NCBI RefSeq assembly: GCF_001895925.1
Contig: NZ_MPPI01000035.1
Span: 1 to 51,936 of the forward strand
Direction of reading: 5' to 3'
DNA: 51,936 bases
DNA from: Phormidesmis priestleyi ULC007
GTDB taxonomy: Bacteria > Cyanobacteriota > Cyanobacteriia > Leptolyngbyales > Leptolyngbyaceae
This document shows, one piece after another, positions 4,479-48,541 of this stretch. Within the stretch, counting starts at the first letter, position 1; the number at the start of each line of letters is the position of its first letter. The notes beneath the pieces were generated by a model. The model was not told the origin of the DNA. It saw only the letters and a list, made by a program, of their open reading frames with translations, and ran no database searches. A program made the translations under genes and the position numbers.

Positions 4479-4551
4479 TAAAAAGGAACCGCCTAAACCG
4501 AAGTTCAGGCGGAGTGTGGTGTGAGGAGTGAACGGAAACTTGCGTCTCCGC
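4479..4551 (-). ncRNA. yfr1: Yfr1 small RNA
   Basis: All Yfr1 hallmarks are present on the minus strand. A 5' stem-loop with a GCAA tetraloop lies at 4550-4533. The invariant unpaired motif ACTCCTCACAC lies at 4529-4519. A 10-bp 3' stem with a TTCG loop lies at 4512-4489 and is followed by a T-rich stretch, so it also serves as terminator. A TACAAT -10 box at 4564-4559 predicts the start near 4551. Position between guaB3 and trxA is the known cyanobacterial context. Yfr1 is a trans-acting Hfq-independent RNA whose single-stranded motif pairs with mRNAs, including those of outer-membrane proteins in Prochlorococcus. Here it lies outside any ORF. Confidence 0.93.
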
Positions 4552-34931: not shown

Positions 34932-36485
34932 ATGCTGAGTGCATTAATTTGGTTGCCTGCGATCGGGGCAGCATTGGTCGGATTTCTCCCCGGTAATATT
35001 TCTGCTAGTCGGGCGCGAGTGGGCGCGATCGCTATTTCTGGCACCCTGTTGCTTTGGACGATCTATCTACTCACACAATTCAATCTCTCAACGCCGGGGC
35101 TACAGATGTCAGAATATCTGCCCTGGATTCCGACTTTAGGACTGAACTATAGTCTAGGAGTCGATGGCTTGTCGCTGCCGTTGGTGGCATTGAGTAACCT
35201 GCTGACTTTTTTGGTGATTTTTAGCAGCGATCCACAGTCTCCCAAGTCAACACCTCTCAAGCGTCCGCGATTATTTTATTCGTTAGTTTTGCTGATCAGT
35301 GCTGGTATGGCAGGCGCATTACTCGCGCAAAACTTACTGTTGTTCTTCCTATTCTATGAAGTGGAGTTAATTCCGTTTTATTTGCTGATCTCAATTTGGG
35401 GCAGCGAGAAACGCGATTATGCGGCGATTAAGTTTCTGCTCTACACGGCGGTTTCTGGGATTCTCATTTTAGCGGCGTTTTTAGCGATGAATTGGTTGAC
35501 CCATGCGTCTAGCTTTGACTATGACGCGATCGCCACTCAAGGGCTGTCTCAACGCACTCAATTAATCTTGCTAACGCTGATGATTGTCGGCTTTGGCATC
35601 AAAATTCCGCTTGTGCCGCTTCACACCTGGCTGCCCGATGCCTATGTTGAAGCCTCGACTCCGACTGCAATTTTGTTAGGCGGCGTTTTAGCCAAGCTGG
35701 GCACCTACGGCTTAGTCAGGTTTTGCTTGGGGCTGTTCCCCGAAACTTGGTCATTGGTTGCGCCTGGATTGTCGATCGTCGCCGCAGTTAGCGTCATGTA
35801 TGGCGCACTCGCCGCGATCGCTCAAAAAGACATTAAGCGCATGGTCGCTTATAGCTCGATCGGGCACATGGGTTATGTTCTCTTGGGGACGATCGCGTTA
35901 ACGCCCTTAGCCCTAGTCGGTGCCGTTTCTCAGATGGTCAGTCATGGTCTAATTTTGGCACTGTTGTTTTATCTCGTGGGCATCATCGAGTCAAAGGTCG
36001 GCACTCGCGATTTAGATGTGCTCAACGGGTTGCTCAATCCGATTCGTGGGTTGCCGATGGTTAGCGCACTGCTGATCTTGGCAGGCATGGGAAGTGCCGG
36101 AATTCCGGGTATGGCGGGCTTTATTTCAGAGTTTTTGGTGTTTCAAGGCAGCTTTTCTGCGTTTCCTTTACCGACGCTGCTGTGTGTGGTGGGTACGGCA
36201 TTAACCGCCGTTTATTTTGTGATTTTGCTGAACCGGACTTGTTTTGGCAAGCTTGACACGAAGACTGCCTACTATCCTAGAGTCACCTGGTTAGAACAAC
36301 TTCCGGCGCTGGCACTCACGGGTCTGATTATCTGGCTCGGTGTGCAACCCACTTGGCTCGTGCGCTGGAGCGAATCGACGACCACCGCTATGGCTTCGGC
36401 GACTTCAGTTTATGAGTCTCGGCAATTGGCAATGAAACCGATCGGGCATCTCAGTCAAGCATTTCCTTCTGGTGTTGCAGAATAA
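34932..36485 (+). CDS. ndhD3: NAD(P)H-quinone oxidoreductase subunit NdhD3 (CO2 uptake)
   Basis: The 517-residue antiporter-like subunit has about 14 transmembrane helices. The charged residues of the proton channel are visible in NLLLFFLFYEVELIPF (Glu) and in PLHTWLPDAYVEASTPTA, with a further Lys in AQKDIKRMVAYSSIGHMGY. It follows ndhF3 by 16 bases and should be cotranscribed. It assembles with NdhF3 and the Cup protein to make the CO2-uptake form of NDH-1. The gap to cupA is 143 bases and contains a palindromic repeat, unusual for this operon. Confidence 0.9.
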   Translation: MLSALIWLPAIGAALVGFLPGNISASRARVGAIAISGTLLLWTIYLLTQFNLSTPGLQMSEYLPWIPTLGLNYSLGVDGLSLPLVALSNLLTFLVIFSSDPQSPKSTPLKRPRLFYSLVLLISAGMAGALLAQNLLLFFLFYEVELIPFYLLISIWGSEKRDYAAIKFLLYTAVSGILILAAFLAMNWLTHASSFDYDAIATQGLSQRTQLILLTLMIVGFGIKIPLVPLHTWLPDAYVEASTPTAILLGGVLAKLGTYGLVRFCLGLFPETWSLVAPGLSIVAAVSVMYGALAAIAQKDIKRMVAYSSIGHMGYVLLGTIALTPLALVGAVSQMVSHGLILALLFYLVGIIESKVGTRDLDVLNGLLNPIRGLPMVSALLILAGMGSAGIPGMAGFISEFLVFQGSFSAFPLPTLLCVVGTALTAVYFVILLNRTCFGKLDTKTAYYPRVTWLEQLPALALTGLIIWLGVQPTWLVRWSESTTTAMASATSVYESRQLAMKPIGHLSQAFPSGVAE

Positions 36486-36488
36486 GGA

Positions 36489-36563
36489 GATGAAATGGCT
36501 GTAGGGGCAATCTCCCCGTGCCTACCCCGGACGGAGAGCAACCACGGGGGGATTGCCCCTACC
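36489..36563. repeat. dispersed palindromic repeat, family 2, copy 1
   Basis: Arms at 36501-36520 and 36543-36562 (GTAGGGGCAATC.CCCCGTG and its complement) pair with one mismatch around a 22-base centre. A second copy lies at 48415-48492. This one sits between ndhD3 and cupA, so the operon mRNA would carry a strong hairpin there. Confidence 0.85.
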
Positions 36564-36628
36564 TCATTCCTCTATTCAGTACACAAATAATCTCATTCGA
36601 TCGCTCTTCTACTCTGTGAGAAAATCCT

Positions 36629-38102: not shown

Positions 38103-38123
38103 GGGCACGGCAGTGCCATACCC
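38103..38123. repeat. short repeat, family 3, copy 1
   Basis: GGGCACGGCAGTGCCATACCC is an imperfect palindrome that recurs exactly at 40463-40483. Confidence 0.8.
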
Positions 38124-38180
38124 GTACGGTACATCATCCTGATAGATCGCAACGAGAGCAATGGCACGTCCATACGGTAG

Positions 38181-39670: not shown

Positions 39671-40420
39671 TCACTTTGTGGTGCAGCAAGGTGTGATGGT
39701 CGGTGGAGCGGTCAGGTTTTGTTGTTGAAGTAATTCATTCCAGGCGGCGATCGCATTGTTGTTTTTGGAAACGCGAATCTGGGTGCCTAATTCAGAGAGT
39801 GCATCGTACCAAATTCCATATTTTGCATAGTTTGTCGCGCGTTCTAGCGGGGTTTTGGCGATCGCGAGTTCTTGCTGTAATTTGGGAGAAGCGGTCATAT
39901 GTTCGATCGTGCCTCGACGAACTACTGGGGTGTCGATCGATTCATCACAAAAGATCGCCAGTTCCCAACGATAGGTTCCTTTGGTTAAAGGCGGGGCGGT
40001 TGTTGGCACCGAAAGACTAATAATTTGGGATGTCGAGGTTGTTTTAGGAATGCGGAGAATTGTCTTATAAATCAGCTTGCCTTTAGCATCTTGTAGTCGC
40101 CATTGGGCTGGCGCTTCTGTGTTGAGTTGGGCGGGAAGACTAAACCAAACCGTCGGACGATCGCGAACCGTTAAGCCCCATAAAGTATCTGGACGAATCA
40201 CTGGAACTAGTGCTGTGAAGCTTTGATAGCGTTCTTCACAAGGGCCCCTACTCCCGCCCCCTTGACCACGATCGCTCGGTTCACCCGGATCAGGAGGCGT
40301 GGGCGGATCGAACCGAATCCGCTGTGGAGTTTGAGGTTTTGCTTCGCTCAAATGAACGATTCCAAGCAAGCTCACGATTGAGAGAGTGAATGCTGCGACG
40401 GATGCTTTGATGAATGACAT
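39671..40420 (-). CDS. secreted DUF928 protein
   Basis: From the ATG at 40420 the product has 249 residues: a signal peptide (1-27, ending SEAK) and a DUF928 domain recognised by RIRFDPPTPPDPGEPSDRG, GGGSRGPCEE and WGLTVRDRPTVWFSLP, followed by helices with a KTPLERATNYAKYGIWYDALSEL segment. DUF928 proteins are nearly confined to cyanobacteria and often lie beside CHAT or CHASE2 genes. An open frame extends upstream to 40489, but it runs into repeat family 3, so I reject that start. The gene is last in the CHAT/sigma operon, 77 bases after the CHAT-CHASE2 stop. Confidence 0.82.
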   Translation of the reverse strand: MSFIKASVAAFTLSIVSLLGIVHLSEAKPQTPQRIRFDPPTPPDPGEPSDRGQGGGSRGPCEERYQSFTALVPVIRPDTLWGLTVRDRPTVWFSLPAQLNTEAPAQWRLQDAKGKLIYKTILRIPKTTSTSQIISLSVPTTAPPLTKGTYRWELAIFCDESIDTPVVRRGTIEHMTASPKLQQELAIAKTPLERATNYAKYGIWYDALSELGTQIRVSKNNNAIAAWNELLQQQNLTAPPTITPCCTTK

Positions 40421-40462
40421 GATTATACCTATTTGATTTGTGAATATGAGAGATCTGCAAGA

Positions 40463-40483
40463 GGGCACGGCAGTGCCATACCC
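40463..40483. repeat. short repeat, family 3, copy 2
   Basis: Exact copy of 38103-38123, located between the CHAT-CHASE2 gene and the DUF928 gene of the same operon, where it could affect read-through or mRNA processing. Confidence 0.8.
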
Positions 40484-40497
40484 ATACAAAAAAGGCG

Positions 40498-42834
40498 CTA
40501 TCTTAATTTTCTTTCATGAATCATGAAGCGGTAAGCAACCCCACCTGCGGTTAACCAGACAGCCCCCAACATCGGCACAAGCGGAACCCAGCCGCCCCAG
40601 ATCAGCAGACAATAGCATCCACCTATGACTACAACACTATTGAGTATAATCGCGATTATAAATCCCTTGGCGTGGCGAAACTTCCAGGCAATTAGTCCTC
40701 CTAGAATCGAGCCACTGCCAATCCACAGCACCTCAACCCAGGGCGACCACACCCACAGTAGAGGACGGTGATCTAACACAGCACTGAGCATCTGACTTAC
40801 CATCTGAGCATGAACAAACACACCGGGCACTCGCTGCGGAAAGCTCTTTCCGTAAGGTGTTGCAAAAAAATCGCCGCTACTGGGTGCAGTCATGCCAATT
40901 AAGACGACGCGATCGCGGATGGCTTCAAGGTTCATTTGCCCGTTGAGCACCTGACGCACAGTGACTTGTTGGGCAATATCTTGAGGCGGCAGCGATCGAT
41001 AGTTCAACAATATTTGACTTCCTCGCGCATCAAGGGACTGATATCCACTGGTGCGATCGCTCAATCCTAAAAAAACGGTGTTTGCTAGTTTGAGATGGCG
41101 CTCAGGGGTAAACGTCGGCAAAATAGGGCTGGGTTCCGCCGCGAGATATCGAAAGGCAAGCTGAACACTCAGCGCATAGGGTGTAGTACAGGTGGAAATT
41201 GTCTTGGGGCTAACAAACAACAAGTGACGGCGAATCACACTATCTTCGTCTTGCACAAAATCACTGAAGCCAATCTCGCTAGCGCGAATATTGGGCGGTG
41301 GCGCAACGCCGATTAAGTCACGGGACATCGGATCAGGACGCTTGCAAATAGCAATCAATTGATCGCGTTGAGTCAGTTGCTCTAATCGTTGTTTGAGAGA
41401 TGGATTTTGCGTGGGGAAGTCGCGGTAGAGGTCGAGTCCGATCACGCGGGGATGATGACGCGACAGAACGTCTAGCAATCGATCGAGCGTTGCATCTGAT
41501 AAAGATCCGGCATTCTGTTTTTCAATATCTTCTTCATCAATTCGCACAACTAACAATCGGGCATCGGGCGGCTCTGGTGGGCGATATTGCATCAAGCGAT
41601 CGAAAGTTTGTAGCTCTAGCGGCTGCATCCAACCCAACCAGCGCAGAGTTACGATCGCGAGGGTGATGATTAAACTAGACTGCGCGATCGTGATGGTTTG
41701 CGATCGCGTGAAATGGGGACGCGACGATCGAGGTGCAGACCAATCTGACCAGCGTGAAGGCACTTCTGCCGGGTTTTGACAAATCACAGGGAGCCACGTT
41801 GCACACGGAAAATCGCCTTCTAACGATTGCAGTTTTTCGCGCGCTTCTCGAACGGCAACATAGAGCGATTTGCCTTGGGCAAAGCCTGCTAAAAAGTGTT
41901 TGAGAAAGTCTTGCGCTACCCGATCGGGAACAGGTTCTCGCATTACAATTGTTTGCGTTAGCTGCAAATCTGCTAGATCATAGGCGAGTCCTAATCCATC
42001 ACAAGAATTAAAAATTGCCAATTTCAGCCCGTGAGCGATCGCGTGGCGCAATCCATATTTCAACTGTTCGATCGTGATCGTTTCAGTTTGGTTGATTTGA
42101 ATGCAGCCTTTTTTACGACTATCGCTATGACCTGCGAAAAATAGAATGTTCCATTCTGATTGCCAAAGATGATCTTGAACGGTTTGTAGCGTTGGTTCAA
42201 TTAACCATTGAATTTCGGCATTGGGTAATTGCTGAAGCAGTTGGCGATCGCGTTCGATTTCAATTCCTTTGGCGTTACCTAAAATGCTAAGGATTTTTAC
42301 TTTTTGACGATGTGTTTTTGATTGAAGTTGCGGCACTTCAATCGATCGAGCAAAAGTTGGCAGACTGAGCGCAATTTCAGCGATCGTATAATCGGTTAGA
42401 AAATCCCATAAATTCCACGGTAGCTGTAGGACTTGTGGATTTTCAGCCACAATAATCAATCGAATCGCATGGTGGGGAGAGAGTCGAGTTCTCAGCGATC
42501 GCTCGATCGGTTGAAACGAGGGAGCGTTCAGCCATTGATTGAGACGACGCTGAAGCGTTTTGGAAAGGACGTTAAATTCCGCCAGCGAAACATGAGTATC
42601 ATCGTCATTCTCGACTTCAAAATCAGGCAGCCGCCGCAACCCCAAATGAGCATACAGTGACGAATATTGCGATCGCCAACGTTGATGAGCATTCACAAGG
42701 TCAGGCATTGCAGGCAGACTGCCGCCAAACTGCATTGGGGTTGGGTGATTGGGTTCCCAAAGTTGCGCGAACACGCTAGGAAATCCAGTTTCCCAGTGTC
42801 CCTGCCCAAAATTGAGAACAATGACAAACTCCAT
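40498..42834 (-). CDS. transmembrane CHAT-CHASE2 sensor protein
   Basis: The 778-residue protein has an N-terminal CHAT (caspase-like) domain with a plausible His-Cys dyad: His236 in FFAGHSD and Cys278 in FNSCDG. A transmembrane helix follows at about 385-402, then a CHASE2 sensor domain (about 405-680; FDRLMQYRPPEPPDARLLVVRIDEEDI is a typical start), then three more helices to the C-terminus. This topology places CHASE2 in the periplasm and the protease-like domain in the cytoplasm. CHASE2 normally feeds kinases or cyclases; here the output would be proteolysis. The gene starts 3 bases after the DUF1822 stop, so it is in the same operon as the sigma factor. Activity and substrate are unproven. 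Confidence 0.85.
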   Translation of the reverse strand: MEFVIVLNFGQGHWETGFPSVFAQLWEPNHPTPMQFGGSLPAMPDLVNAHQRWRSQYSSLYAHLGLRRLPDFEVENDDDTHVSLAEFNVLSKTLQRRLNQWLNAPSFQPIERSLRTRLSPHHAIRLIIVAENPQVLQLPWNLWDFLTDYTIAEIALSLPTFARSIEVPQLQSKTHRQKVKILSILGNAKGIEIERDRQLLQQLPNAEIQWLIEPTLQTVQDHLWQSEWNILFFAGHSDSRKKGCIQINQTETITIEQLKYGLRHAIAHGLKLAIFNSCDGLGLAYDLADLQLTQTIVMREPVPDRVAQDFLKHFLAGFAQGKSLYVAVREAREKLQSLEGDFPCATWLPVICQNPAEVPSRWSDWSAPRSSRPHFTRSQTITIAQSSLIITLAIVTLRWLGWMQPLELQTFDRLMQYRPPEPPDARLLVVRIDEEDIEKQNAGSLSDATLDRLLDVLSRHHPRVIGLDLYRDFPTQNPSLKQRLEQLTQRDQLIAICKRPDPMSRDLIGVAPPPNIRASEIGFSDFVQDEDSVIRRHLLFVSPKTISTCTTPYALSVQLAFRYLAAEPSPILPTFTPERHLKLANTVFLGLSDRTSGYQSLDARGSQILLNYRSLPPQDIAQQVTVRQVLNGQMNLEAIRDRVVLIGMTAPSSGDFFATPYGKSFPQRVPGVFVHAQMVSQMLSAVLDHRPLLWVWSPWVEVLWIGSGSILGGLIAWKFRHAKGFIIAIILNSVVVIGGCYCLLIWGGWVPLVPMLGAVWLTAGGVAYRFMIHERKLR

Positions 42835-42837
42835 AAT

Positions 42838-43989
42838 CTACACAACAAAAGGTTCAACGATGGTTTCAGTCGCGATCGCAAGTTCGATCGTAAAGCGAGT
42901 TGCGATCGGGCATTTAAATCGCTTCAGTTGAATGAGATTGTCTTGATCGGTTGCTGTAATAGTTTGGATAATCTCATCGGTGCCCGATCGCAGCGTCAGC
43001 CGAACTCCACTCGGTAACGTGGACTGTGGATCAGCCGATCTAAGCTGAATACGAATCGTGAGGCGATCAGAGGAATCAGGGTCTATTTGCACAATCAGTA
43101 ACAGCGATCGGCGATCAAGATCAACCATTTTGACTCGCTGAACGGATAGTGCAGAGTCAGCCACTTGTCGAAAGCTATAGGCAAGTGTACTAGTGTTGTC
43201 GAACAAACTTTCTAAACTCTGCCAACTTGTTTCAAAGCTCTGCTGTAGCCAACGGCTTAAATTAACAATAGGTGTTTGCGATTGGCGTTGAAGTCTCACC
43301 AAGCGATCGCGCCAATCAGCTTGTTCGACTAATGCGCCCCATTGGACAAACGGCAACACTGAGCGAGGCTCAATGACTAAGGGATGCGCTAATTGTTGCA
43401 AGAGCGCTTCCGCTTGAGTTGCAGAAATCGGATTGAGCGGCGCAACCGTTGAGCGAGTGACTTCATTCAATTCTGCCTGCTGTGCCACCCAAAACACGCC
43501 GATATCTCGAATTAGATAGGCGGCATCTAGCGAGTAAGTACGATCGTCTGCATCATACGTCCCCAATGTTTTAATTTGTTCGTGGGTTGTATATCCCCAG
43601 ATCCGCAATGTTGCGTCATCTGGATTAATCTGAACTGCAAAATAATAGTCTCCAACCCAACTTGGAATATCCATCCATTCTTGGGGCACTCGCAGCTCAG
43701 AAGTGTCGATCGAGCGAGTGGGAATCAGAATCGCTCGACAGTTATTCCAGACGATCGAGGTGCCATTCACCAGTTGCCAAGCCGAAGCCAGTTGCGAACC
43801 CGACAACCCGCTTTGAGCATGAGGAATATATTCTGTTTGTATCCAGGGCAACACGGTCTGCAAACACACTTGATTGAGATAAGCGCTCCAACTCGCTTGC
43901 CCTTGAAGCGGCTGCCATGCAGCATCATGGACAGACGGTGGAATCTCTAAACTCAGTTCAGTCAGACAGTCTAGAAAGGTCATAGTCAT
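42838..43989 (-). CDS. DUF1822 family protein
   Basis: The 383-residue protein fits the cyanobacterial DUF1822 family: an N-terminal LEIPPSVHDAAWQPLQGQ-like opening, WNNCRAILIPTRSID and WVGDYYFAVQINPDD in the middle, and a beta-rich C-terminus. No signal peptide or membrane segment is seen, so it is probably cytoplasmic. The ATG overlaps the stop of the sigma factor gene (ATGA), a sign of translational coupling and near-equal production. That arrangement is typical of sigma/anti-sigma pairs, so an inhibitory or adaptor role for DUF1822 is a fair hypothesis but not established. Confidence 0.82.
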   Translation of the reverse strand: MTMTFLDCLTELSLEIPPSVHDAAWQPLQGQASWSAYLNQVCLQTVLPWIQTEYIPHAQSGLSGSQLASAWQLVNGTSIVWNNCRAILIPTRSIDTSELRVPQEWMDIPSWVGDYYFAVQINPDDATLRIWGYTTHEQIKTLGTYDADDRTYSLDAAYLIRDIGVFWVAQQAELNEVTRSTVAPLNPISATQAEALLQQLAHPLVIEPRSVLPFVQWGALVEQADWRDRLVRLQRQSQTPIVNLSRWLQQSFETSWQSLESLFDNTSTLAYSFRQVADSALSVQRVKMVDLDRRSLLLIVQIDPDSSDRLTIRIQLRSADPQSTLPSGVRLTLRSGTDEIIQTITATDQDNLIQLKRFKCPIATRFTIELAIATETIVEPFVV

Positions 43990-45194
43990 TGCTCCGAAGC
44001 TTGATTTGACGGGCGATCGCTGGAGTCGTGGTTAGCGTAATAGTGCTGAAGCCATTCATCCAACTCAGCCCCCATGACATTTATCACGTTGGAACTAACA
44101 GAAATATGTAAGTCCTGACTCCAACGCACTAATTTCAGCAATAATGTTTCTCGCGTTTTCGTCAATTTGCGAGAAACGGTATATTGCTGTATCTCAAGTT
44201 GTTTGGCAATTTGTTGTTGGGTCAACTGCTGCTGATAATAAAGCGCTAATAGTTTTTGCGTTGTGGCATCCAGCGAGGCAATGCCATCCACCAACACTTG
44301 AGCAATCTCACTGTGTTGGGTCTGACGCTGCTGATTTTCTTCTTCAACAATCAGCGTTTCTAACAGTGAATTGCTGTCATTGACCAAATTATCCTGCAAC
44401 TCACTCGATTCGCGATCGCCCCTGGGTGCATTCAGCGAGGCCACTGAGGGATACAGACTATTTCGCACTCGACTCGCACAGTACAACAGCCAGCGCTCTA
44501 ACTCAACCGCAGTCGTCATCGTCCATTCTGGCGATCGGGCATGATTATAGCGATCGACCATCACTTGCCAGGTTTCCGAGTCAGGCGCAGTCGATCGCCG
44601 CAAACCAGGCGTTTTCGCAGGTTTATAACTTGCCTCAAAGCATTGCCATGCCAACACAAGCTGATCAATTCTCATGCGGCTCAGTCCTTCTTGCTGCAAC
44701 ACTTCGATTAATCGCTTGCGGCTAAGTTTGAGCAACAGTCCCCACTCGTTGCACAGATCAATTTCGCGCCGTTGTCTGAGCCAATCGCGAACCACATTTC
44801 CAAAAGCAGTACTCGCGTAGGTTTTTAGGGTTGCTCGACCACTGACTTCACAAGCTTTGAGAATTTTGGGAACGGACGCGATCGCAATCTGAAAAAAATC
44901 TGCAATCTGACTGGCTCTTTGAGACTGAATGACTTTTTGAACGCTCCAATAGCAAGCTTCTTGTAGATAAGCAGAGAGATGCCCGATCGCCAGCGATCGT
45001 GGCTCTTCGGCTTCTGCCTGAGCGCATTGATGCCAAAATCTTTCCCAAAAGGCAGGTTCCGCCTCTGGTCGGTTTTGAATCTGCTGCTTGATACTGCGCT
45101 GAAGTTTTGCATCCACACTCCAGCAAGTCGCTACATTCGATTCAAACTGAAGAAATGTCGAAAACAGATCGGTGATGCTGTGACGAGCGTGCAT
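43986..45194 (-). CDS. sigma-70-like factor, divergent
   Basis: The 402-residue protein ends in a clear sigma region 4 helix-turn-helix (about 303-355: LDATTQKLLALYYQQQ, then LTQQQIAKQLEIQQYTVSRKL). Residues about 70-145 resemble a diverged region 2 with YASTAFGNVVRDWLRQRRE. It is larger than a typical ECF sigma factor (about 200 aa) and has no region 1.1 or clear region 3, so it is an atypical cyanobacterial group 3-like factor. It should direct RNA polymerase to a special promoter set. I choose ATG 45194 (after GGTGAGG) over the TTG at 45200. It begins 10 bases after the upstream CHAT gene. Confidence 0.8.
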   Translation of the reverse strand: MHARHSITDLFSTFLQFESNVATCWSVDAKLQRSIKQQIQNRPEAEPAFWERFWHQCAQAEAEEPRSLAIGHLSAYLQEACYWSVQKVIQSQRASQIADFFQIAIASVPKILKACEVSGRATLKTYASTAFGNVVRDWLRQRREIDLCNEWGLLLKLSRKRLIEVLQQEGLSRMRIDQLVLAWQCFEASYKPAKTPGLRRSTAPDSETWQVMVDRYNHARSPEWTMTTAVELERWLLYCASRVRNSLYPSVASLNAPRGDRESSELQDNLVNDSNSLLETLIVEEENQQRQTQHSEIAQVLVDGIASLDATTQKLLALYYQQQLTQQQIAKQLEIQQYTVSRKLTKTRETLLLKLVRWSQDLHISVSSNVINVMGAELDEWLQHYYANHDSSDRPSNQASEQ

Positions 45195-45204
45195 GATCAA
45201 AACC

Positions 45205-46527
45205 TCACCACGGATTTCCTACTAGGGTAAAGGCTGCCCAGTGATAGGGGTGAGATAAGTTTGTACTAGATGCGATCGCTTGAGTCGGTAAATCTTTGGG
45301 GTGCAGCCGATTATGCAGCATCTCAAGCTGGGCAAATCTGAGCGCTTCCGCCTTGATGGTCGCAGTTTTGAGCTGACGATAAAATGCCTGCATCAAGAGT
45401 GGAGTGCTGAGATCGCTGACTGACCATAAGGACGCGATCGCCGCTTTGCTGCCTGCTTGCACCGCTAATCCTGCAAATCCTAGCTCGGCGTTGCGATCGC
45501 CTAAGGCAGTTCGACAAGCACTCAAAACCAGGAGTTGCACGGGCGGCTGCTGCAATCCTAATTCTTGAAGCTGATCGAGGCGAAGCTGTTGATTCCAAAA
45601 CTGAATATAAGAGCGATCGATCGTTCCGGCGGCAAACTCAGCGTGAGTCGCAAAATGCACAATGCTATAGGGAAAGCTGGCTCTCTGTTGACGGAGATTT
45701 TTGAGCGTAAAGTCTTGATTGAGCAGTTGTTTGCCATTCCAGGGCGGTTGAGTGATGGCCGCGAGTTCGAGCGGCACACCGGGCAAGGCAGGCTGATTGT
45801 TAAACGTTGAGGCTCCCATTGCCAACACTTGAGTTTGAGAAGAGTTGCGAGCTGCGCGATCGAGCAAATTAAAAGCGGGAATGATTGCCAATTGATATTT
45901 CTCAATCAAAAACTGTTTTCCGTCGTGCAGCGCCGCGATCGGGAGGCTCCGCAGCCCGCTTCCTAAGCAAAAAATCAGGAGATCGGTATTCCCTAACTCT
46001 GGGGCAATGGAGCCAATCAGCCATTGATATAGCTGTTGTCCTGGCTGAAGATATTCATCGGGTTCTGAATCGGGACGCAGAATGCCCATCCGAAATGCCT
46101 GAATCGTTTCCAGCAATCGCGCTTGATTAGCGGCGGGCACTTTTTTCTGAATCAGCTTTCCAGTCTCTAAAACGAGAATTACGTCTAAGCGATCGGGCTG
46201 CGGAATTGCATAGATCAGGGCCGCATGATGCTTCGTTTGTTGATTAATTTGTGCCAGCGATCGCGCAATCTGTGCTGCCGGAAGAATCTCACTGGTCAGT
46301 TTTCCTTGAAAGTAGTCTTCATACTGCTTTTTCCAACGTTGCTCAACTTGCTCGATCGTCGCTGCAACATCAGAAGACTGAGCAGGTTGCGAAATAGGGG
46401 ACGGGGCGATCGGCGGGTCGCATAACTCTGAGTTAGCCGCAAATTCAGCCTTTCCACTCTGAGCCAGAATTCCCACAAGAAGGCAGATTACCAAAGACAG
46501 CAGCACCCAAGGTTGAAGTTTTCGCAT
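45205..46527 (-). CDS. exported or membrane-anchored CHAT-domain protease-like protein
   Basis: The 440-residue product has a signal peptide or anchor (about 6-27, ending AQSG) and a helical spacer (about 50-100). A CHAT domain follows with the dyad His295 in HFATHAEF and Cys338 in LSACRTALGD, both well conserved. It lacks the TPR repeats that usually precede CHAT in cyanobacteria. CHAT proteins are caspase-like cysteine peptidases. With its signal sequence this one would act outside the cytoplasm, unlike the CHAT domain of the CHAT-CHASE2 protein. ATG 46527 is preferred to the codon at 46542. It is the first gene of the five-gene operon. Confidence 0.85.
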   Translation of the reverse strand: MRKLQPWVLLSLVICLLVGILAQSGKAEFAANSELCDPPIAPSPISQPAQSSDVAATIEQVEQRWKKQYEDYFQGKLTSEILPAAQIARSLAQINQQTKHHAALIYAIPQPDRLDVILVLETGKLIQKKVPAANQARLLETIQAFRMGILRPDSEPDEYLQPGQQLYQWLIGSIAPELGNTDLLIFCLGSGLRSLPIAALHDGKQFLIEKYQLAIIPAFNLLDRAARNSSQTQVLAMGASTFNNQPALPGVPLELAAITQPPWNGKQLLNQDFTLKNLRQQRASFPYSIVHFATHAEFAAGTIDRSYIQFWNQQLRLDQLQELGLQQPPVQLLVLSACRTALGDRNAELGFAGLAVQAGSKAAIASLWSVSDLSTPLLMQAFYRQLKTATIKAEALRFAQLEMLHNRLHPKDLPTQAIASSTNLSHPYHWAAFTLVGNPW

Positions 46528-46624
46528 TGCATTAAACAGCAAATTGAAGATATAGATCTACGTCGTATTCTATCTAAAGATTTTTTACCCTCGCTGATTC
46601 AAACACAATTGTTGAGCATAGTGG

Positions 46625-47600: not shown

Positions 47601-47751
47601 AAAAACCTCATAATTTACCTTCTGAAAGTTATCAAGAGAGTCAACGGTCTTCGCCTCGCTAAGGGGTGACTCTATAACCTAACTTCAGATGGAGGTATCT
47701 ATTACTTTGCTCGATGACAGTTTGAGAGAAACCTTAATCTACAAAAGAATA

Positions 47752-48395
47752 ATGACTCGAAGATTAGAAAATAAAGTAGTGATCGTCACTGGGGCCGGAA
47801 CCGGAATCGGCGAAGCGATCGCCCACAAGTTTGCTAAAGAAGGCGCGAAAGTTATAGTCAATGGATTGCCCAGCGATCCGATCGAAGAAGTTGCAAACGC
47901 CATTCGTCAGTCGGGCGGAACTGCGATCGCCTATGCAGGTGATGTCACTCAAGAAGCAAGCGCTCAAGGAGGGAATTGCGACGATCGCCGATGTCTCTCA
48001 ACCTGAGCAAGTGCAGTCAGCGATCGATAAAATTGCACAACAGTTTGGCACGATCGATATTGTATTCGCCAATGCTGGAATTAATGGAGTTTGGGCACCG
48101 ATCGAAGAACTCACACCCGAAGAATGGGATAAAACCATCAACACGAATCTTAAAGGCACATTCTTAACTGTGAAGTATGCGGTGCCTTATCTTAAGTAAC
48201 AGGGCGGAGCAATTATTGTAACAGCTTCGGTTAACGGCACTCGAATTTTTAGCAACAGTGGCGCGACAGCATATTCCTGCACAAAAGCGGCTCAAGGTGC
48301 GTTTACTGGTAGCATTTTTAGCGTCTGATGCATCGAGTCACATCACGGGCACAGAGGTCTGGATTGATGGCGCAGAATCGCTGTTAAAAGGTTAA
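47752..48395 (+). pseudogene. decayed, apparently chimeric SDR oxidoreductase gene
   Basis: The gene starts MTRRLENKVVIVTGAGTGIG with an intact Rossmann motif. It then shifts frame near 47955, continues as a second SDR-like segment (FANAGINGVWAPIEELTPEEW), and hits TAA at 48197-48199. It carries on in frame with GGAIIVTASVNG and AYSCTKAAQ (the active-site Tyr/Lys region), loses about 60 codons near 48300, and finishes in another frame with LASDASSHITGTEVWIDGAESLLKG. Several hits of this kind rule out a working enzyme. The two halves resemble different SDR subfamilies, so an ancient recombination or a deletion joining tandem SDR genes is likely. The frame count is by eye. Confidence 0.8.
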
Positions 48396-48414
48396 TTTAG
48401 CGTTGCACAATGAG

Positions 48415-48492
48415 AAGATGAAATGGCTGTAGGGGTAGCGCCCCCGTGCCTACCCCTGACGGAGGGCAACCACGGGGGGATTGCTCCTACCC
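48415..48492. repeat. dispersed palindromic repeat, family 2, copy 2
   Basis: About 85 percent identical to 36489-36563, beginning GATGAAATGGCTGTAGGGG in both. It sits between the SDR pseudogene and the GH31 gene. An open frame from 48446 that continues into GH31 is an artefact of this repeat. Confidence 0.85.
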
Positions 48493-48541
48493 AAATCATC
48501 CGTCCGTTCGCAATGCTGTTAAATCATTAGAACTATTCTTC

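Follow-up and report, generated by a model that had tools for sequence, protein, structure and literature searches.

A stable sigma factor–DUF1822 pair in cyanobacteria and a candidate CHAT protease switch outside CRISPR

In type III-E CRISPR (CASP) systems, the protein Csx30 inhibits a sigma factor, CASP-sigma, and is cut by the CHAT protease Csx29, its N-terminal domain binding sigma and its C-terminal domain being cut (excerpts of PMC10028731). Could a lock of this kind be opened from a membrane, outside CRISPR? The question is raised by five closely packed genes of Phormidesmis priestleyi ULC007, which lie on the minus strand of the window analysed here (assembly GCF_001895925.1, contig NZ_MPPI01000035.1, positions 1 to 51,936 of the forward strand; 51,936 nucleotides in all). 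They encode, in order, a secreted CHAT protein, a sigma-70 family factor, a DUF1822 protein, a membrane protein that joins CHAT to the CHASE2 sensor domain, and a secreted DUF928 protein (Table 1). We show that the sigma factor and DUF1822 are inherited as a stable pair, and from these sequence patterns we lean towards reading the operon as a CHASE2-gated switch in which CHASE2, with DUF928, would be the trigger, CHAT the cutter and DUF1822 an anti-sigma lock.

The initial annotation had described five minus-strand genes with intergenic gaps, from CHAT to DUF928 and with ATG starts, of 10, -4, 3 and 77 bases, the start of DUF1822 overlapping the sigma stop as ATGA; the open reading frame (ORF) list and the Pfam matches bear out the genes, their order, the gaps and the overlap. 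The order recurs across the phylum and so reflects more than chance. Neighbourhoods of this type are already in print. Excerpts of Kaur 2021 (PMC8195603) describe EACC2-caspase proteins that, like the CHAT-CHASE2 protein here, join an N-terminal constant domain to a caspase-fold protease and a variable C-terminus, CHASE2 and STAND among them; sigma genes of the extracytoplasmic function (ECF) type and DUF1822 genes are their neighbours in the majority of TRADD-N-independent cases, DUF1822 being termed a TPR protein. The same excerpts propose autopeptidase activation, with sigma as a later step, and place the systems among conflict systems. Section 9, the one part of that paper to name DUF1822, gives it no anti-sigma role and includes neither DUF928 nor the evidence from pairing and from the membrane-anchored family f23 presented below. 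The literature searched, outside which most subscription papers fall, yielded no statement on DUF1822 as an anti-sigma factor or on a link between DUF928 and CHASE2; what is newly proposed here is the functional assignment of DUF1822 as anti-sigma. The CHAT-CHASE2 protein also opens with a further conserved domain, which the initial annotation had not separated and which we take, from its context rather than from a comparison of sequences, to be EACC2 of Kaur 2021 (hereafter the N-domain).

The sigma factor and DUF1822 as an inherited pair

Using profiles built from the window proteins, we annotated 133 DUF1822 genes, 7 in family f23 and 126 others. They come from 27 named cyanobacterial loci, retrieved with the operon DUF1822 as query and hence its relatives, and from 98 phylum regions comprising most of the higher-scoring DUF1822 matches listed plus 18 weaker, hand-picked ones (duplicates between named and unnamed loci were removed for the motif test only). 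Linkage beyond this genome had been set beforehand as a test, and it is extensive: 113 of the 126 DUF1822 genes outside f23 have a sigma-like gene in the same orientation as their immediate upstream neighbour, the 13 remaining slots being filled by another gene (9), a gene on the opposite strand (3) or a contig end (1), and a protein with N-domain and CHAT is encoded directly downstream of 75 of the 126, in 53 cases with CHASE2 and in 22 with another C-terminus. Among the named loci, an N-domain–CHAT protein follows DUF1822 in 27 of 27 and sigma directly precedes it in 25, the exceptions being L009, at a contig start, and L004, which is taken up below. CHASE2 is present in 25 (L010 ends in nSTAND1 and WD40 instead, and L023 looks alike by eye), and DUF928 is next in most.

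The linkage also holds when the search starts from sigma. We distinguish three upstream sigma classes, S1 (the operon type), S2 (mostly shorter, ~190-390 aa) and S3. A search of 59 genomes with the S1 profile at E 1e-10 returned 15 matches, 12 of them full-length (in 8 genomes) and 3 covering region 4 only; every full-length match adjoins a DUF1822 match, two of these being from the ULC007 genome. DUF1822 itself occurs in 81 of 117 phylum genomes, with up to 11 matches per genome among the matches listed. By hhalign, the relation of S1 to S3 extends over 306 columns (97.4%) and that of S1 to S2 covers 50 columns within region 4 (94.3%), with 1.3% for S2 against S3. Of 60 upstream proteins missed by the S1 profile, 23 match TIGR02937 individually at E 0.01, so the sigma label of many S2 members comes from the shared profile only.

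Phylogenetic analysis indicates how closely the two genes are tied. When sigma class is mapped onto the DUF1822 tree (126 proteins, 114 labelled tips), it changes 2 times, the minimum possible; shuffled labels give a mean of 46.5 changes, and as few as 2 in none of 200 shuffles. On the same tree 23 changes are needed for the downstream state, scored as CHASE2 type, another EACC2 type or none. For the 69 loci that include CHAT, the protease tree requires 8 changes of sigma class and the DUF1822 tree 2; for the C-terminal type, each of these trees requires 9 (FastTree trees with long branches; support for S1, 81). Distance correlations over these loci are 0.938 for sigma–DUF1822, 0.883 for DUF1822–CHAT and 0.805 for sigma–CHAT, and the corresponding partial correlations, with the third gene held constant, are 0.818, 0.622 and -0.146, which fit a chain running from sigma through DUF1822 to CHAT.

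Some loci deserve mention in their own right. At L165 (G008:C25:14717-15898), one of the 12 full-length S1 matches, with one in-frame TGA, stands beside a DUF1822 open frame and represents a decayed or misread sigma gene. At L024-L028 (Calothrix, Dulcicalothrix), two DUF1822 genes of different types lie near each other; a separate sigma-like gene precedes each of them, and these loci also encode a second CHAT protein, 878-880 aa long.

DUF1822, its membrane-anchored relatives and the sigma factor

What kind of protein is DUF1822? Its structural model (mean predicted local distance difference test score, pLDDT, 82.8) combines an N-terminal alpha/beta part with a helical middle, followed by a low-confidence linker carrying a conserved NLxxWL...WQ segment and by an Ig-like C-terminal sandwich, and as modelled it does not look TPR-like, contrary to the label in Kaur 2021. 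Hydropathy detects a transmembrane-like segment in 2 of the 126 cyanobacterial proteins and none in that of the operon; the cyanobacterial form looks soluble. A Foldseek search with the model gave no match at E 0.001. With VIA-align the best Z was 7.0, for an Ig-like domain (81 residues), and the N-terminal part reached 6.1 against a restriction enzyme domain (110 residues), both too weak for homology. Matches to the Ig-like C-terminal domain dominate the fold-match list; the absence of Csx30 from the matches listed excludes nothing.

Anti-sigma factors usually consist of a cytoplasmic domain, one transmembrane segment and an outer domain, encoded beside the sigma gene, and family f23 has a predicted layout that fits this topology. 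These loci lie within the same phylum but in a different family from the cyanobacterial loci, in small genomes whose size and kinship suggest a Vampirovibrionia-like lineage. At L112-L116, the DUF1822 match starts a protein of 1019-1294 aa with one strong transmembrane segment 191-223 residues before its end, and in all five of these complete loci the next gene is a sigma factor of ECF size (187-198 aa). The gene is split into two ORFs at L117, again with sigma next, and L111 is cut by a contig end. The tail of the L112 protein matches the TonB C-terminal family (Pfam, E 4.5e-7). Aligned with the cyanobacterial DUF1822 profile, the seven f23 N-termini score 97.1% over 156 columns, and an L117 ORF matches Pfam DUF1822 at 8.7e-9; the long L112 protein does not reach the E 0.001 threshold for DUF1822 in the Pfam scan and has a domain score of 45.3 bits in the genome search. 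CHAT profiles found no match in the near neighbours at f23 loci. A large protein follows sigma at these loci, with zinc-ribbon/AAA matches by Pfam in L112 and L117, and the gene order is alike in the six uncut loci.

A comparison with RseA/sigma-E and RsiW/sigma-W, which likewise combine an envelope signal, a protease, an anti-sigma factor and a sigma factor (excerpts of PMC10028731, with general knowledge), places the two forms of DUF1822: in those systems the anti-sigma factor spans the membrane, as f23 DUF1822 is predicted to do, whereas in the operon DUF1822 looks soluble and it is the protease-sensor that spans.

The initial annotation's divergent sigma-70-like factor is well founded, with a TIGR02937 match of 3.9e-30 and 104.7 bits (cut-off 42.9) over residues 77-356. 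Its domains comprise a divergent region 2 (~74-150, by eye), an extra, confidently modelled helical domain (~152-249) and region 4 (305-353), which alone is visible to Pfam, as in the cyanobacterial r4-only sigma families such as SigJ.1 (excerpts of PMC11119718). The linker between regions 2 and 4 spans ~150 residues, compared with <50 in ECF sigma factors as cited in the same source, and hydropathy detects no transmembrane-like segment. Region 4 superposes on that of sigma-E (2h27) with a root-mean-square deviation of 1.2 over 61-64 columns (Foldseek E ~1); Foldseek returned no match for the sigma model at E 0.001, and close superpositions are confined to region 4.

The parallel that the initial annotation drew with Csx29 and Csx30 survives as an analogy only. 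DUF1822 matches no PDB chain by sequence up to E 5, and neither there nor in Pfam does it match a known anti-sigma factor or Csx30, which also counts among the difficulties weighed below; with the type III-E sigma model NF041236, whose cut-off is 100, the operon sigma scores 27.1 bits (E 3.4e-6), a far poorer fit than that of the general model TIGR02937. The two systems resemble each other in having a CHAT protease, a sigma factor and a third protein, of two domains, in what would be the inhibitor slot. They differ in input, which is RNA in type III-E and a membrane CHASE2 domain here, and in the protease, Csx29 being TPR-CHAT whereas neither operon CHAT protein matches a TPR family (Pfam, E 1). 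No CRISPR-like array was found in the 22 kb scanned (window 30000-51936); Cas7-11 was not searched for.

A CHASE2-linked protease and the candidate switch

Which of the two CHAT proteins could reach a cytoplasmic lock? The profiles of the N-domain and CHAT are both matched by 86 proteins, and His236 and Cys278 are kept in 86 of 86. Among CHAT-CHASE2 proteins, a transmembrane segment directly follows CHAT in 55 of 56 and at least two C-terminal segments are present in 53 of 56 (hydropathy), and CHAT is therefore predicted to be cytoplasmic and CHASE2 outside. The operon's CHAT-CHASE2 protein has no PDB sequence match up to E 1. At the 69 loci the C-terminus of N-domain–CHAT proteins is CHASE2 in 51 and of another type in 18, nSTAND1 occurring with or without WD40 in L010, L054 and L099. 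The first CHAT protein and DUF928 both have signal-like hydrophobic N-termini (hydropathy), in agreement with the secretion assigned to them initially. The predicted topology would allow CHAT of the CHASE2 protein, and not the separate secreted CHAT, to reach DUF1822. The secreted protein, which has similar short counterparts immediately ahead of sigma in L006 and L008, is most likely a product of the operon that is exported and not the cutter.

DUF928 goes with CHASE2. Among the two genes that follow a CHASE2-type protein, DUF928 is present in 39 of 51 cases, versus 0 of 24 for other CHAT proteins (contig ends excluded). At 30 loci picked by DUF928 alone, CHASE2 lies within 1.5 kb in 20, only a CHAT in 3 and neither in 7; these 30 were drawn from 66 matches listed and include the window's own locus as well as some DUF1822 loci of the sample above. 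This adjacency in both directions is why we regard the two as travelling together, and secreted DUF928 is proposed as an extracytoplasmic partner of CHASE2.

The switch would then work as follows. Secreted DUF928 and CHASE2 would meet or sense something outside the inner membrane, and CHASE2 would activate CHAT, the cysteine protease towards the opposite, cytoplasmic end of the polypeptide. DUF1822, as a soluble anti-sigma factor, would hold the sigma factor encoded just before it until CHAT cuts DUF1822, freeing sigma to transcribe its targets. By analogy with Csx30, the N-terminal half of DUF1822, the part common to f23, may hold sigma, and the linker or C-terminal half may be the substrate. 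We infer the binding and inhibition of sigma by DUF1822, the cutting by CHAT of DUF1822 rather than of sigma or itself, the signal and the targets. Of the protease-lock logic originally put forward, the lock is favoured by the stable sigma–DUF1822 pair, by the intermediate position of DUF1822 in the covariation and by the membrane-anchored DUF1822 beside sigma in f23; the separate secreted CHAT drops out as a cutter.

Several observations weigh against this reading. The chain in the partial correlations coincides with the physical gene order, and chromosomal linkage alone could produce it; the tree result is less exposed to this objection, since it is CHAT, and not DUF1822, that moves between sigma classes. 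The pattern is generally less clear inside individual classes, the sigma–DUF1822, DUF1822–CHAT and sigma–CHAT partials being 0.688, 0.580 and 0.155 for S1 (35 loci) and 0.445, 0.565 and 0.283 for S2 (25 loci), and in S3 (9 loci) the chain fails (0.657, 0.009 and 0.691). Confidence in the sigma model is poor around region 2 (pLDDT <50 over 56-142). L004 consists of a CHAT fragment cut by the contig start, a 77-residue ORF, DUF1822 and CHAT-CHASE2, with no sigma between; the sigma gene was possibly lost.

The persistent sigma–CHAT covariation at the S3 loci would suit an arrangement in which the target of CHAT is CHAT itself or sigma, and DUF1822 serves as an adaptor or co-activator and not as an inhibitor. 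The autopeptidase activation proposed in Kaur 2021 comes close to this: in excerpts of PMC8195603, EACC2-caspase proteins are proposed to cleave themselves, with sigma as a later step. Given its extra helical domain between regions 2 and 4, an S1 sigma could itself be the substrate. Over all 69 loci, however, sigma–CHAT covariation disappears once DUF1822 is removed, many sigma–DUF1822 pairs occur without CHAT, and a DUF1822 with one transmembrane segment beside sigma fits an anti-sigma factor. We consider this arrangement unlikely.

Gene content presents a further difficulty for the protease-lock reading. No EACC2-type gene is found in the next two genes at 43 of the 114 labelled sigma–DUF1822 pairs (contig ends included), so CHAT is not obligatory, and L003, the second such pair of the ULC007 genome, also lacks one. 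The slot downstream of DUF1822 can hold secreted trypsins (L070, L072, L073) or two-partner secretion (TPS) exoproteins (L063, L110, L119), which cannot cut a cytoplasmic lock and look like outputs; CHAT-CHASE2 could likewise be an output. Sigma and DUF1822 would in that case form a self-contained sensing module, and the protease, CHASE2, DUF928 and secreted CHAT would be regulon products kept in the operon as envelope or defence outputs, an account in keeping with the many changes of downstream state on the DUF1822 tree. It is less easily reconciled with the sensor modules of EACC2-CHAT proteins (CHASE2, or nSTAND1 with or without WD40), whose protease side is predicted to be cytoplasmic, or with the DUF1822–CHAT covariation that remains over the 69 loci after sigma is removed, and we rate it as rather improbable. 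If CHAT does unlock DUF1822, pairs without a protease may be served in trans or may have other triggers; the ULC007 genome has 14 CHAT matches.

The proteins in this downstream slot are also worth describing for themselves. Those of L070, L072 and L073 are probably secreted, have two trypsin stretches each and lie directly after sigma–DUF1822, with TPR in L072 and L073; trypsins were dropped as alternative lock cutters for their signal-like N-termini (seen by eye in L073; the hydropathy scan gave none). The exoproteins of L063, L110 and L119 carry TPS secretion domains directly after DUF1822, with a CHAT gene next in L119, and possibly form an output or input class. L104, a single case, has a C14 caspase without a transmembrane-like segment, 261 bases away.

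A conflict system, anti-phage or leading to programmed death, with CHAT as the effector and sigma only amplifying expression, would be consistent with the placement of EACC2-caspase in excerpts of PMC8195603 and with the nSTAND1 and WD40 domains of some C-termini. We consider it highly improbable: no PADLOC family matches the five operon proteins below E 0.006, and CHASE2 and secreted DUF928 appear to point outward.

More tentatively, and with rather less than even confidence, DUF1822 may be an ancient anti-sigma domain of the phylum that predates the split between photosynthetic cyanobacteria and f23, its soluble cyanobacterial form being unlocked by interchangeable CHAT sensor-proteases (CHASE2, nSTAND-WD40 and others) as a phylum-wide, non-CRISPR counterpart of Csx29, Csx30 and sigma. 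If right, the protease-lock reading would give DUF1822 a function and explain the purpose of many cyanobacterial CHAT proteases, make the switch of caspase-like protease, anti-sigma and sigma in type III-E CRISPR one case of a more general signalling design, and turn many partnerless sigma factors into pairs with testable inputs.

Coordinates, promoter motifs and other features of the window

The features of the operon are collected in Table 1. For DUF928, the ATG is the likelier start because a 25-base repeat (window 40463-40487, other copy 38103-38127) extends into the TTG start of the ORF.

Table 1. Genes, domains and catalytic residues of the operon, in window coordinates
Feature	Position and start	Strand	Basis
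Secreted CHAT protein	ORF 45205-46542, 445 aa from TTG at 46542; ATG at 46527	minus	Pfam CHAT 3.5e-65
Sigma-70 family factor (S1 class)	ORF 43986-45200, 404 aa from TTG at 45200; ATG at 45194	minus	TIGR02937; Pfam region 4 4.7e-6
DUF1822	42838-43989, 383 aa	minus	Pfam DUF1822 1e-83
CHAT-CHASE2 membrane sensor-protease (putative)	40498-42834, 778 aa	minus	Pfam CHASE2 7.2e-67 and CHAT 3e-14 in one protein
Secreted DUF928	ORF 39671-40489; ATG at 40420	minus	Pfam DUF928 1.3e-40
N-terminal constant domain of CHAT-CHASE2 protein	42346..42825, residues 4-163	minus	profile match limits
CHAT protease domain of CHAT-CHASE2 protein	41749..42303, residues 178-362	minus	profile alignment
CHAT catalytic residues	His236, 42127-42129; Cys278, 42001-42003	minus	alignment of 86 proteins
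CHASE2 sensor domain	40693..41667, residues 390-714	minus	Pfam; predicted extracytoplasmic

Upstream of sigma, no clear common promoter is visible at 13 Nostocales loci. An exploratory motif, TGC[AG]TAA, occurs upstream of sigma in 23 of 87 non-redundant cases versus 64 of 751 other genes (p 4.8e-6, uncorrected, many motifs having been tried); the opposite strand of these stretches shows an excess as well (14/87 versus 36/751), the spacing to a -10 is loose, and the window operon itself has no copy upstream. A second exploratory motif, TAAAGTTTTGTAA, precedes S2-class sigma in 6 of 39 cases versus 1 of 751. Autoregulated promoters are a weak possibility, and the motifs are not used as evidence.

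Elsewhere in the window, two overlapping plus-strand ORFs in different frames (47689-48199) together resemble one short-chain dehydrogenase and represent a frameshift or a pseudogene, and a 99-base repeat is present in two copies that are 85% identical (36474-36572 and 48402-48500). The small RNA Yfr1 is encoded on the minus strand at 4487-4551 (Rfam RF01116, 53.5 bits).

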